DNA of 38,206 nucleotides from Methyloversatilis sp. (GTDB lineage: Bacteria > Pseudomonadota > Gammaproteobacteria > Burkholderiales > Rhodocyclaceae): assembly GCA_017984755.1 (NCBI GenBank), contig JAGNYW010000029.1:1-38206 (forward strand), read 5' to 3'. The position numbers and the translations under genes were made by a program. This document shows positions 34,260 through 38,206 of the stretch, in pieces (position 1 is the first letter of the stretch; the number at the start of each line of letters is the position of its first letter). The notes beneath the pieces are model-generated. The model was not told the DNA's origin. It searched no databases and saw only the letters and a list, made by a program, of their open reading frames with translations.

Positions 34260-36122
34260 ATGCCAGCGACCCGTCATCCTCCGGCGAAGATCCATCGTTT
34301 GTTCGACGTCCGGCAATCCTCATCGGCCGATCTGCCGGCATTGCTCGACGTGAATGGCGGCAGCGTTTCGCATGCCGCCCTCGCCGCACGCATGCACCAG
34401 CTTGCCCTCCGCCTGAACGAAGTCGGTATCGGTGCAGCGGACCGCGTAGCCGTGATGGCCCCGAACAGCACCGACATGGCGTCTGCCCTGCTGGGCGTGA
34501 TGTGCGCTTCGGTCTGTGCACCGCTCAACCCGGGCTATCGGCAGGCCGAGCTGGAGTTCTTCCTGCACGACCTCGACGCGCGTGCGCTGGTCGTCACGCC
34601 GGAAAGTCCGCCGCTCGCCCGGGATGTCGCTGCCAGCCGGGGCATGCCCGTCATCGAAGCCGGTCCGTCGTTGTGGGACACTGCGGATCCGGCTGCCCAC
34701 CTGCATGAGCCCCTCGCACGGAATGAAGACATCGCTCTCGTGCTGCACACGTCGGGTACGACCTCGCGACCCAAACAGGTGCCGCTGAGCCACGCGAATC
34801 TGGCTTCTTCCATGGCCAACATCGTTACTTCCCTCCGCCTGACGCAAGCCGATCGCGCACTCAATGTGATGCCGCTCTTTCACATTCACGGGCTGATGGC
34901 CGGCTTGCTGGCACCGCTCGCCGGCGGCGGCAGCGTCGTCTGCGCGCCTGACCTGCAAGTGCCTGCATTCTTCGAGTGGCTCGAACGCTTCGGTGCGACG
35001 TGGTACTCGGCCGTGCCGACCATGCACCAGGCCATCGTCGGTGCCACGGCCACCGGCAAGGTTCGGCGACCGACCGTATCCCTGCGCTTCGTGCGGTCAT
35101 CGTCGGCCGCGCTGGCACCGGCCACGCTGGCGCAGCTCGAGACCTGGTTCTCCTGTCCGGTGCTCGAAGCCTATGGCATGACCGAAGCAGCGCATCAGAT
35201 GGCCAGCAACCCGCTGCCGCCCAGCCGGAGGAAGCCAGGCTCGGTGGGGCTGCCCGCCGGGCCCGAAATGGCAATCCTCTCGGTCGACGGTCTTCCGCTG
35301 CCTGCCGGCGAGTGCGGCGAAATCGCCATCCGCGGCGACAACGTGATGCGTGCCTACCACGCCAATCCCGAAGCGAACCATGCCGCCTTCACGAACAGCT
35401 GGTTCCGCACCGGCGACGAGGGCTGCTTCGACGAGGATGGCTACCTGCGCATCACCGGCCGCCTGAAGGAAATGATCAATCGCGGCGGCGAGAAGATCGC
35501 GCCGCGCGAAATCGACGAAGCCCTGCTCGCCCACCCGGACGTCGAGCAGGCGGTGGCATTCGCGCTGCCTCATCCGACGCTCGGAGAGGACCTTGCAGCG
35601 GCGGTGGTACTGCGCCCGGACAGCACGGTCGCCCCCGATGCATTGCGCAACTTCCTGTTTGATCGTCTTGCCGGCTTCAAGGTGCCCAGCGAAATCATCC
35701 TGCTGCGCGAGATTCCGAAGGGTCCGACCGGCAAGGTGCAACGCATCGGCATGGCGGAGCGGTTGAGCGCCGCGCGCCAGCACGCCTTCGTCGCACCGCG
35801 TGACGCGGTCGAGGCCATTCTCGCTCAGGCGTGGAGCGAGGTACTCGAGGTCGACGCGATCGGCATGGACGACAACTTCTTTGCGCTCGGCTGCGATTCG
35901 CTGAAGGCGACACGCGCGGCGGGACGAATCGAGTCCATGCTGCCGATCGAACTGTCCGCCACCGACATCTTTCACCATCCCACCGTGGCCGGGCTCGCCG
36001 GAACGATACGCGCCAGGCTCGGGCCGGACGTCATCGCAGAAATGGAGCGCATCCTCGACGAGATCGCGTCGCTTCCGGATTGCTCGAATGTCGATGGCAC
36101 GCCACATGAGCACGCGCCCTGA
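34260..36122 (+). CDS. Oxalyl-CoA synthetase-like adenylation domain fused to a carrier protein domain
   Basis: The 620-residue product has an ANL adenylation domain (about 10-515) and a peptidyl-carrier domain (about 525-600). Core motifs are present: HTSGTTSRPKQVPLSH, YGMTEAAHQM, WFRTGDEGCFDEDGYL and GRLKEMINRGGEKIAP. The order and wording follow the Pcs60/AAE3 oxalyl-CoA synthetases closely. The three residues I recall as oxalate contacts in Arabidopsis AAE3 (His214, Ser289, His319) correspond to His208, Ser282 and His312. The carrier motif is LGCDSLKATR, with the phosphopantetheine Ser547. ATG 34260 follows AGGT and fits the AAE3 N-terminus; ATG 34179 would add 27 residues. It probably loads oxalate or a similar small acid onto its own carrier. 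The gene overlaps the ThDP enzyme gene and starts the NRPS-like locus. Confidence 0.85.
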   Translation: MPATRHPPAKIHRLFDVRQSSSADLPALLDVNGGSVSHAALAARMHQLALRLNEVGIGAADRVAVMAPNSTDMASALLGVMCASVCAPLNPGYRQAELEFFLHDLDARALVVTPESPPLARDVAASRGMPVIEAGPSLWDTADPAAHLHEPLARNEDIALVLHTSGTTSRPKQVPLSHANLASSMANIVTSLRLTQADRALNVMPLFHIHGLMAGLLAPLAGGGSVVCAPDLQVPAFFEWLERFGATWYSAVPTMHQAIVGATATGKVRRPTVSLRFVRSSSAALAPATLAQLETWFSCPVLEAYGMTEAAHQMASNPLPPSRRKPGSVGLPAGPEMAILSVDGLPLPAGECGEIAIRGDNVMRAYHANPEANHAAFTNSWFRTGDEGCFDEDGYLRITGRLKEMINRGGEKIAPREIDEALLAHPDVEQAVAFALPHPTLGEDLAAAVVLRPDSTVAPDALRNFLFDRLAGFKVPSEIILLREIPKGPTGKVQRIGMAERLSAARQHAFVAPRDAVEAILAQAWSEVLEVDAIGMDDNFFALGCDSLKATRAAGRIESMLPIELSATDIFHHPTVAGLAGTIRARLGPDVIAEMERILDEIASLPDCSNVDGTPHEHAP

Positions 36123-37919: not shown

Positions 37920-38206
37920 ATGAGTGAACCCGGTTCCCGTCATGCCTCCCTGAGCGCCGGGCAACTTGACGCCCTGCGGAGCCACAGACAAACCCAGGGT
38001 GCCCGGCGCTCGACGATATCCGTGCATTCGCAACGCCACTGGACCGAACTGCACGACGGCCAGCAGGAAACCCGGCAATCCTGCTCGTTCGCGCAGTCGA
38101 GGCTATGGTTTCTGGAGCAGTGGGAGCCGGGCACGTCGCTGTACCACGTCGTGCAGTCGTTGCAGGTTGCGGGGCGTGTGGATGCTGCGGCGCTGCAGGG
38201 AGCGCT
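37920..38206 (+). CDS. Nonribosomal peptide synthetase, N-terminal start of a condensation domain (truncated by window end)
   Basis: The frame begins at ATG 37920, 89 bp after the ThDP gene, and stays open to the window edge (95 codons). After about 55 polar residues it reads CSFAQSRLWFLEQWEPGTSL and YHVVQSLQVAGRVDAAALQG. This is the C1 core motif (SxAQxRLWxL) and the start of an NRPS condensation domain. No adenylation domain precedes it, so it should receive an acyl group from elsewhere, plausibly the carrier of the gene at 34260. The following modules lie outside the window. An in-frame ATG at 37875 is closed by a TAG, so 37920 is the first usable start. Confidence 0.87.
   Translation, partial: MSEPGSRHASLSAGQLDALRSHRQTQGARRSTISVHSQRHWTELHDGQQETRQSCSFAQSRLWFLEQWEPGTSLYHVVQSLQVAGRVDAAALQGA

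Follow-up and report, generated by a model that had tools for sequence, protein, structure and literature searches.

How does a peptide begin when its nonribosomal peptide synthetase (NRPS) is preceded by an oxalyl-CoA-synthetase-like protein and a thiamine diphosphate (ThDP) enzyme? This question is raised by contig JAGNYW010000029.1 of Methyloversatilis sp. (assembly GCA_017984755.1), which we analysed at its full length of 38,206 nucleotides and call the window (the whole of contig C58 of genome G000, ending at base 38206). Near its right-hand end, genes for an adenylation-carrier (A-T) protein, for a ThDP enzyme of the group that includes 2-hydroxyacyl-CoA lyases/synthases (HACL/S) and oxalyl-CoA decarboxylases (OXC), and for the start of an NRPS follow one another, all on one strand. 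What the sequence shows directly is the order of the genes, their domains and conservation, the residue changes, the signature of purifying selection and the existence of loci with and without the ThDP gene. Judging from these, we tentatively favor an oxalate-primed NRPS in which an optional HACL-like ThDP enzyme would make a carrier-bound 2-hydroxyacyl starter, a reading that falls a little short of probable.

Gene order and continuation of the NRPS

The A-T protein (647 aa) is encoded at 34179..36122 on the plus strand, and its alternative start at 34260 is the in-frame Met28. It comprises an oxalyl-CoA-synthetase-like adenylation (A) domain (about 34317-35735, plus strand), whose closest relatives in the PDB are oxalate-CoA ligases, and a carrier (T) domain (about 35820-36005, plus strand) with phosphopantetheine Ser574. 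Its Pfam matches are AMP-binding (E = 8e-73), AMP-binding_C (2e-13) and PP-binding (2e-14). The ThDP gene (36088..37830, plus strand, 580 aa) overlaps it by 35 bp, or by 17 bp if the start is at 36106, as it may be, where the protein of the same-genus genome G569 begins. All three TPP_enzyme domains (N, M and C) are predicted in its product at scores over the Pfam cut-offs (E = 6e-20 to 3e-30). The NRPS gene starts at 37920, and its N-terminal linker and first 46 condensation (C) domain residues (37920..38204, plus strand) are cut by the contig end; those 46 residues match Pfam Condensation at E = 6e-5, below the Pfam cut-off.

G569 carries the A-T, ThDP, NRPS and phosphopantetheinyl transferase (PPTase) genes on one strand of a single contig, with just the ThDP and NRPS genes between A-T and PPTase. 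The gene order is not due to chance, because G569 shares it at protein identities of 86% (A-T) and 83% (ThDP), with ratios of nonsynonymous to synonymous substitution (Ka/Ks, simple Nei-Gojobori count) of 0.15 and 0.17, respectively. Its NRPS of 2423 aa has the architecture C-A-T-C-A-T-TE (two C, two A and two T domains and one thioesterase, TE). The C fragment of the window matches residues 18-112 of this protein (64 of 95 positions identical), and therefore the window NRPS is real. Overlapping A-T and ThDP genes followed by an NRPS condensation domain on one strand had been described in a first-pass annotation of the window, and Pfam, the open reading frames and the G569 continuation bear this out, including the NRPS architecture downstream.

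In three further genomes of the genus (G1070, G1071 and G1072), A-T and ThDP are accompanied by an NRPS of 2944-2949 aa; in G1070 and G1072 its Pfam domains are two C, three A, three T and one TE. Note that the C-A-T modules and the TE are those of G569 and G1070/G1072, the window having just 46 C residues. A search found no further C domains in the window's own genome assembly, which therefore lacks the remainder of the NRPS. NRPS A-domain codes gave weak readings, Gln-like (DAWQFGLID) and Val-like (DAFxLGGTF), against code tables, with a gramicidin S synthetase segment as the ruler. The A1 code of G569 varied between alignments (DVGLFGVID versus DVGDFGVID).

Predicted loading of oxalate

Against solved structures, oxalate-CoA ligases top the ranking of the A domain (396, 380 and 367 bits), which agrees with its predicted oxalyl-CoA-synthetase-like character in the first-pass annotation. 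The next CoA-ligase family, malonyl-CoA synthetase, reaches at most 222 bits, a gap of at least 145 bits. Two-module NRPS chains fall between these two groups, with scores as high as 289 bits owing to a double match; taken singly, the stretches reach 137 and 149 bits.

We take H214, S289 and H319 of AtAAE3 to line the oxalate pocket; placed by counting on the alignment with solved structures, they correspond to H235, S309 and H339 of the window protein. These three residues and S574 are present in all 12 A-T proteins from ThDP-bearing loci, window included, as are the FHxH, SSS and TEAxH motifs. Of the 17 A-T proteins in total, 16 retain the pocket residues, the exception being G1204 with G at H339, and so do 16/16 carrier-less oxalyl-CoA-synthetase-like proteins of the A-T tree (below). 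Because its nearest structures are oxalate-CoA ligases and the presumed pocket positions are kept, the A domain likely loads oxalate on the carrier.

Alternatively, the A domain might load another small acid (e.g., glycolate, glyoxylate, pyruvate or malonate), the ThDP enzyme then joining or cleaving another unit. The specificity is read from sequence only, and the best NCBIfam matches of both proteins lie under their cut-offs (FadD7 for A-T, 408 of 650 bits; OXC for the ThDP enzyme, 299 of 557 bits), which leaves room for such a substrate. However, among solved structures the oxalate-CoA ligases lead clearly, and every pocket position that we attribute to AAE3 is kept; we consider this alternative improbable.

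The window's genome also holds a separate carrier-less oxalyl-CoA-synthetase-like gene (C22:4220-5716; L094:4190-5728) beside TctC- and TctB-family transporter genes, which perhaps serves oxalate use.

A ThDP clade with Gln at the Glu position

The ThDP enzyme had been called OXC/HACL-like. The group stands, and comparison with structures refines it to the HACL/S side: HACL/S 6xn8 scores 278 bits, versus 233 (7ayg), 209 (2q27) and 194 (2c31) for OXC. Profile comparison also places it closest to HACL/S. Note that some 8vz entries are named OXC in the PDB, and that the series is treated as HACL/S in PMC11271303. We found at least 13 distinct loci of this ThDP family in all, and the 13 enzymes form one clade (support 100/100).

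Residues were compared by aligning the 13 enzymes of the family with E. coli OXC and with 12 comparators drawn from further genomes in the order. Where E. coli OXC has its ThDP-activating residue E54, all 13 members have Gln (Gln93 in the window, codon 36364..36366, plus strand), whereas the 12 comparators share the Glu of E. coli OXC. The acyl-CoA-binding Arg (R400 in ApbHACL/S numbering) is divided in the same way, with Gln in 13/13 members (window Gln433, codon 37384..37386, plus strand) and Arg in 12/12 comparators and E. coli OXC. A second acyl-CoA Arg, R260, is changed in 9 of the 13, and the window has Gln at both Arg positions, which were placed by counting on the structure-match alignment. 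Beyond the last strand common to the aligned proteins, the C-terminal tail has 4 residues in the window and 4-10 in 11 of the 12 complete members; E. coli OXC has 21 and the comparators 14-15. PMC11271303 is our source for the roles of the ThDP Glu, of R260 and R400 and of the tail that covers CoA; in PMC3534367, E51 is the mark of ThDP decarboxylases, with Val in glyoxylate carboligases.

The initial pattern of our contig scan contained RHQQAAV, and a Gln census from that scan alone is biased. Pattern-free searches also gave Gln (G360, G393, G569, G1070-G1072 and G1088). Profile A2, behind the searches that gave G393, G569, G1070-G1072 and G1088, was built from Gln-bearing rows and still found Glu-bearing comparators.

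A carrier-bound rather than CoA-bound substrate is favored because R400 is replaced by Gln in 13/13 members, R260 is changed in 9/13 and the tail is short. The catalytic outcome can be approached through the water network of OXC. According to PMC8411744, Y134, E135 and Y497 of MeOXC bind active-site waters linked to carbanion protonation, and E135G and Y497F are among four changes that make MeOXC a carboligase joining oxalyl-CoA and formaldehyde directly. At the three positions, located by motif, 13/13 members carry F, Q/M/T and S/V/T/A/N (F, M and S in the window), and the 12 comparators carry F, Q and T/G; the family therefore sides with the comparators rather than with OXC. Carboligation is favored over plain decarboxylation because these OXC water-network residues are replaced in 13/13. 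Glyoxylate carboligase (PMC3534367), itself a carboligase, likewise has no such Glu, which points the same way. The residue evidence thereby leans to carboligation on a carrier-bound substrate. The first-pass annotation had offered a formyl or a 2-hydroxyacyl starter; the same residues point to the latter, which we prefer, and away from plain decarboxylation.

A formyl starter, the less likely of the two, would arise if the oxalyl-S-T thioester were decarboxylated and the carbanion protonated, the C domain then passing formyl to give an N-formyl peptide. This would require no aldehyde, and related OXC perform the same reaction on CoA. However, N-formylation from formyl-tetrahydrofolate is known in NRPSs, so the route would be costly. 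The OXC protonation-water residues (role as in PMC8411744) are, moreover, replaced in 13/13 members, and we regard a formyl starter as unlikely.

Loci with and without the ThDP gene

Is the ThDP enzyme a fixed part of the system? G677, a genome of the same genus rated 100% complete, carries at the same locus A-T, 12 bp, an NRPS frame of 3415 aa and PPTase. No ThDP gene lies between its A-T and NRPS genes, and no family ThDP gene was found elsewhere in this genome, where the only match scored 268 bits. Its A-T protein departs from just 1 of the 157 columns in which the other 12 all agree.

Searching 399 genomes of the order by A-T first gave 27 places, of which 6 reach the carrier domain and 21 do not. 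Two of the six have the ThDP gene (the window and G393:C39). None was found in the fetched stretches of G393:C166, G467, G1239 and G1204 (the G1239 contig is 7.5 kb; G1239 and G1204 were not searched whole). The A-T tree included 16 of the 21 carrier-less places; L073, L075, L077, L083 and L089, with internal stops or partial, were left out. On this tree the ThDP label, scored against all other rows, changes at least three times by well-supported branches and four times on the best tree. Given the loci with and without the gene and these label changes, the ThDP enzyme appears to be an optional addition that tailors the starter of an oxalate-type module.

The same observations bear on another explanation, in which oxalyl is used unchanged at all loci to give an N-oxalyl peptide, the ThDP protein being weak or having a docking or editing role. 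It would fit the Glu-to-Gln change in 13/13 members, the priming of ThDP-less NRPSs by same-pocket A-T proteins and the three or more label changes. Yet the window ThDP protein is full length and keeps the GD...NN cofactor motif, and Ka/Ks of 0.17-0.31 (6 pairs, 4 same-genus genes) indicates purifying selection. That the Gln never varies points to a retained function rather than to decay. We judge unchanged oxalyl throughout to be improbable as well.

Two genomes from this search show further arrangements. G393 has a second oxalate-type A-T (L090:2983-16423, C166) with its own NRPS and a PPTase-like gene and no adjacent ThDP gene; NRPS-like pieces upstream in C166 are split over several frames. 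At G1204 (L093:5393-11418), A-T is fused to a sulfotransferase domain and stands before a TubC docking-C-T-TE protein; here the scaffold may serve another starter chemistry.

Proposed starter route

In the oxalate-primed route that we prefer, the A domain would adenylate oxalate and load its own T domain, as its family and pocket residues suggest. The ThDP enzyme, HACL-like and re-adapted from CoA to a carrier protein, would attack the oxalyl-S-T thioester with loss of CO2, and the formyl-anion equivalent would be transferred to an aldehyde to give 2-hydroxyacyl-S-T. The first C domain of the NRPS would hand this starter to the first amino acid; two modules and the TE come next in G569. At ThDP-less loci, A-T would pass on oxalyl itself, giving an N-oxalyl peptide.

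Several points weigh against this route. An aldehyde is needed, and we identified no source for it. The ThDP gene is dispensable: A-T proteins with all three pocket residues stand directly before ThDP-less NRPSs in G677, G393:C166, G467 and G1239, and these four further loci show that the gene trio of the first-pass annotation is not obligatory. R260 is retained in 4 of the 13 members and the G1088 tail has 19 residues; CoA features have therefore been lost unevenly. The F, Q and non-Y residues at the water-network positions are common to the 12 ordinary comparators and therefore are no mark of the family. The Gln of the F-Q-E motif, by motif the Q128 of AcHACL that contacts the acyl group (according to PMC13327070), is M or T in 5/5 members of the window's genus, and this speaks against a HACL mechanism retained without change. 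With the Glu gone, the ThDP enzyme may be slow or inactive. Lastly, a phosphoenolpyruvate-mutase/isocitrate-lyase-family (PEPM) protein encoded at some loci scores 130 bits with 4iqd, 120 with petal death protein, about 108 with methylisocitrate lyases and 80 with oxaloacetate acetylhydrolase, an oxalate maker in this family.

Gene neighborhood and distribution

A-T is in the cluster at all 12 loci with the upstream side present (L011 is cut), either directly before the ThDP gene or with a PEPM or NRPS gene in between. A C domain is found at 12/12 loci where the contig permits (L010 is cut). It lies within an NRPS in G569, G1070-G1072, L006, L007 and G1088, with its start only in the window; it stands alone in G360, L009 and L011 and is fused to a TauD-type oxygenase domain in G393. 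Pair identities of A-T and ThDP proteins run parallel (r = 0.98 over 55 non-independent pairs from 11 loci, L010 omitted). This constant company speaks for the proposed route, as does the purifying selection on the ThDP gene. The motif LSPxKRALL occurs in the N-terminal extension of four of the nine ThDP members compared, an extension absent from E. coli OXC. In G360, L006 and L009, the NRPS or C protein opens with a similar LSP motif, and the motif may be a docking element.

The PEPM gene is in the cluster at four or more of the 13 loci (L006, L007, L009 and G360), a lower bound because several loci are cut by contig ends. Its presence at these loci favors the oxalate route, since oxaloacetate acetylhydrolase belongs to the same family. 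All four proteins have the Cys of the R(K/R)CGH motif, which we take to mark C-C lyases/hydrolases rather than PEP mutase. No PEPM match was found in the window's own genome at E ≤ 1e-10, and none was seen in the examined stretches of G1070-G1072, G1088 and G677. We therefore reject PEPM as an obligatory oxalate supplier.

A B12-binding/radical SAM gene (32063-33985, minus strand) is the divergent neighbor of A-T in the window and likewise in G569, G1070, G1071, G1072 and G677. It is a core neighbor, present in 13/13 genomes of the genus, and for this reason we reject it as a pathway gene. Within about 1500 bases on either side of it, seven genus genomes without the family ThDP gene (G677 aside) gave no A-T match. 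Since the gene is genus-wide and lies beside A-T in six genomes, the place looks like a fixed site of cluster gain and loss.

Other settings differ. In a Thiogranum metagenome-assembled genome (MAG; L009:5356-15762), A-T, PEPM, ThDP and a lone C domain lie on one strand between a trpE-type gene and trpG-, trpD- and trpC-type genes, as if inserted into a tryptophan operon. A C-A-T-TE version is flanked by sulfotransferase- and glycosyltransferase-family genes at L006:12579-17428 and L007:17819-21016. In G1072 the surroundings of the cluster include an AbiV-like HEPN gene (L040:4151-4849).

The ThDP family is rare and patchy. Genome counts include the window's own genome where it is in the set and are lower bounds, given 3 (class, phylum and A-T-first), 6 (order) or 9 (family) candidates scored per genome. 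The class search found it in at least 2 of 369 genomes at E ≤ 1e-90. At E ≤ 1e-160, it was found in at least 1 of 398 genomes of the phylum (the window's own), 2 of 150 of the family (the window's own and G569), 5 of 13 of the genus and 2 of 23 of the order of G360. In the window's own order, 10 of 200 genomes pass E ≤ 1e-120, with family-level scores in just G000 (835 bits) and G393 (747 bits); the other matches, at most 455 bits, served as the 12 comparators. A scan of named contigs gave six family loci among nine confirmed, four of them from gammaproteobacterial MAGs, one from a deltaproteobacterial (Myxococcota) and one from a Verrucomicrobia MAG, the L008 and G360 locus being counted once. 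Plasmids searched at E ≤ 1e-60 yielded no match. L012-L014 were dropped (tblastn identity 26-27%, none of the sought motifs in the matched stretch).

Novelty and implications

Each of the enzyme families is known. We found no description of the gene set, judged by title and opening of the abstract, among the matches listed in a search of open full-text literature (PMC), which leaves subscription journals mostly outside its scope; as far as this search goes, the oxalate-loaded starter, a ThDP carboligase acting on a carrier and the Gln clade are undescribed in the open literature. Somewhat less likely than the route itself is that these loci represent a natural carrier-bound one-carbon acyloin chemistry, with 2-hydroxyacyl NRPS starters built from oxalate and an aldehyde, a clade of ThDP carboligases working with Gln for the near-universal Glu, and a cassette that is gained and lost ahead of oxalate-primed NRPSs. 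If true, this would be a new bacterial way to start a peptide natural product and a natural counterpart to engineered OXC/HACL one-carbon elongation pathways. It would also offer a further natural case for testing how ThDP is activated when the Glu is lacking, and would help genome mining for peptides capped with N-oxalyl, N-formyl or 2-hydroxyacyl groups. Because sister genomes carry the same locus with or without the ThDP gene, the question is directly testable by comparing their products.

Comparison with known systems

The window protein resembles AAE3/Pcs60 oxalyl-CoA synthetases (5ie0, 6qjz and 8aff) in its A domain and in the HTSGTT, FHxH, SxS and TEAxH motifs; unlike in them, this domain is fused to a carrier domain and placed before an NRPS. 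The ThDP enzyme shares with HACL/S (6xn8, 8vza and others) its three ThDP domains and an F-Q-E-type motif, and these are its nearest relatives by sequence and profile, whereas Gln for Glu, Gln for Arg400, the shortened tail (11/12) and the NRPS context set it apart. With OXC (2c31, 2q27 and 7ayg) it shares the superfamily and would share an oxalyl thioester as the type of substrate, but the family is changed at Y134, E135, Y497 and the canonical Glu position. Glyoxylate carboligase, as described in PMC3534367, is likewise a ThDP carboligase without the canonical Glu; there the residue is Val rather than Gln and the substrate is free glyoxylate. In the engineered glycolyl-CoA synthase MeOXC4 (PMC8411744), an oxalyl thioester and an aldehyde yield a 2-hydroxyacyl thioester, and overlapping positions are changed. 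That enzyme is engineered and CoA-bound, whereas the family at these loci is natural, putatively carrier-linked, and has Gln in place of Glu.

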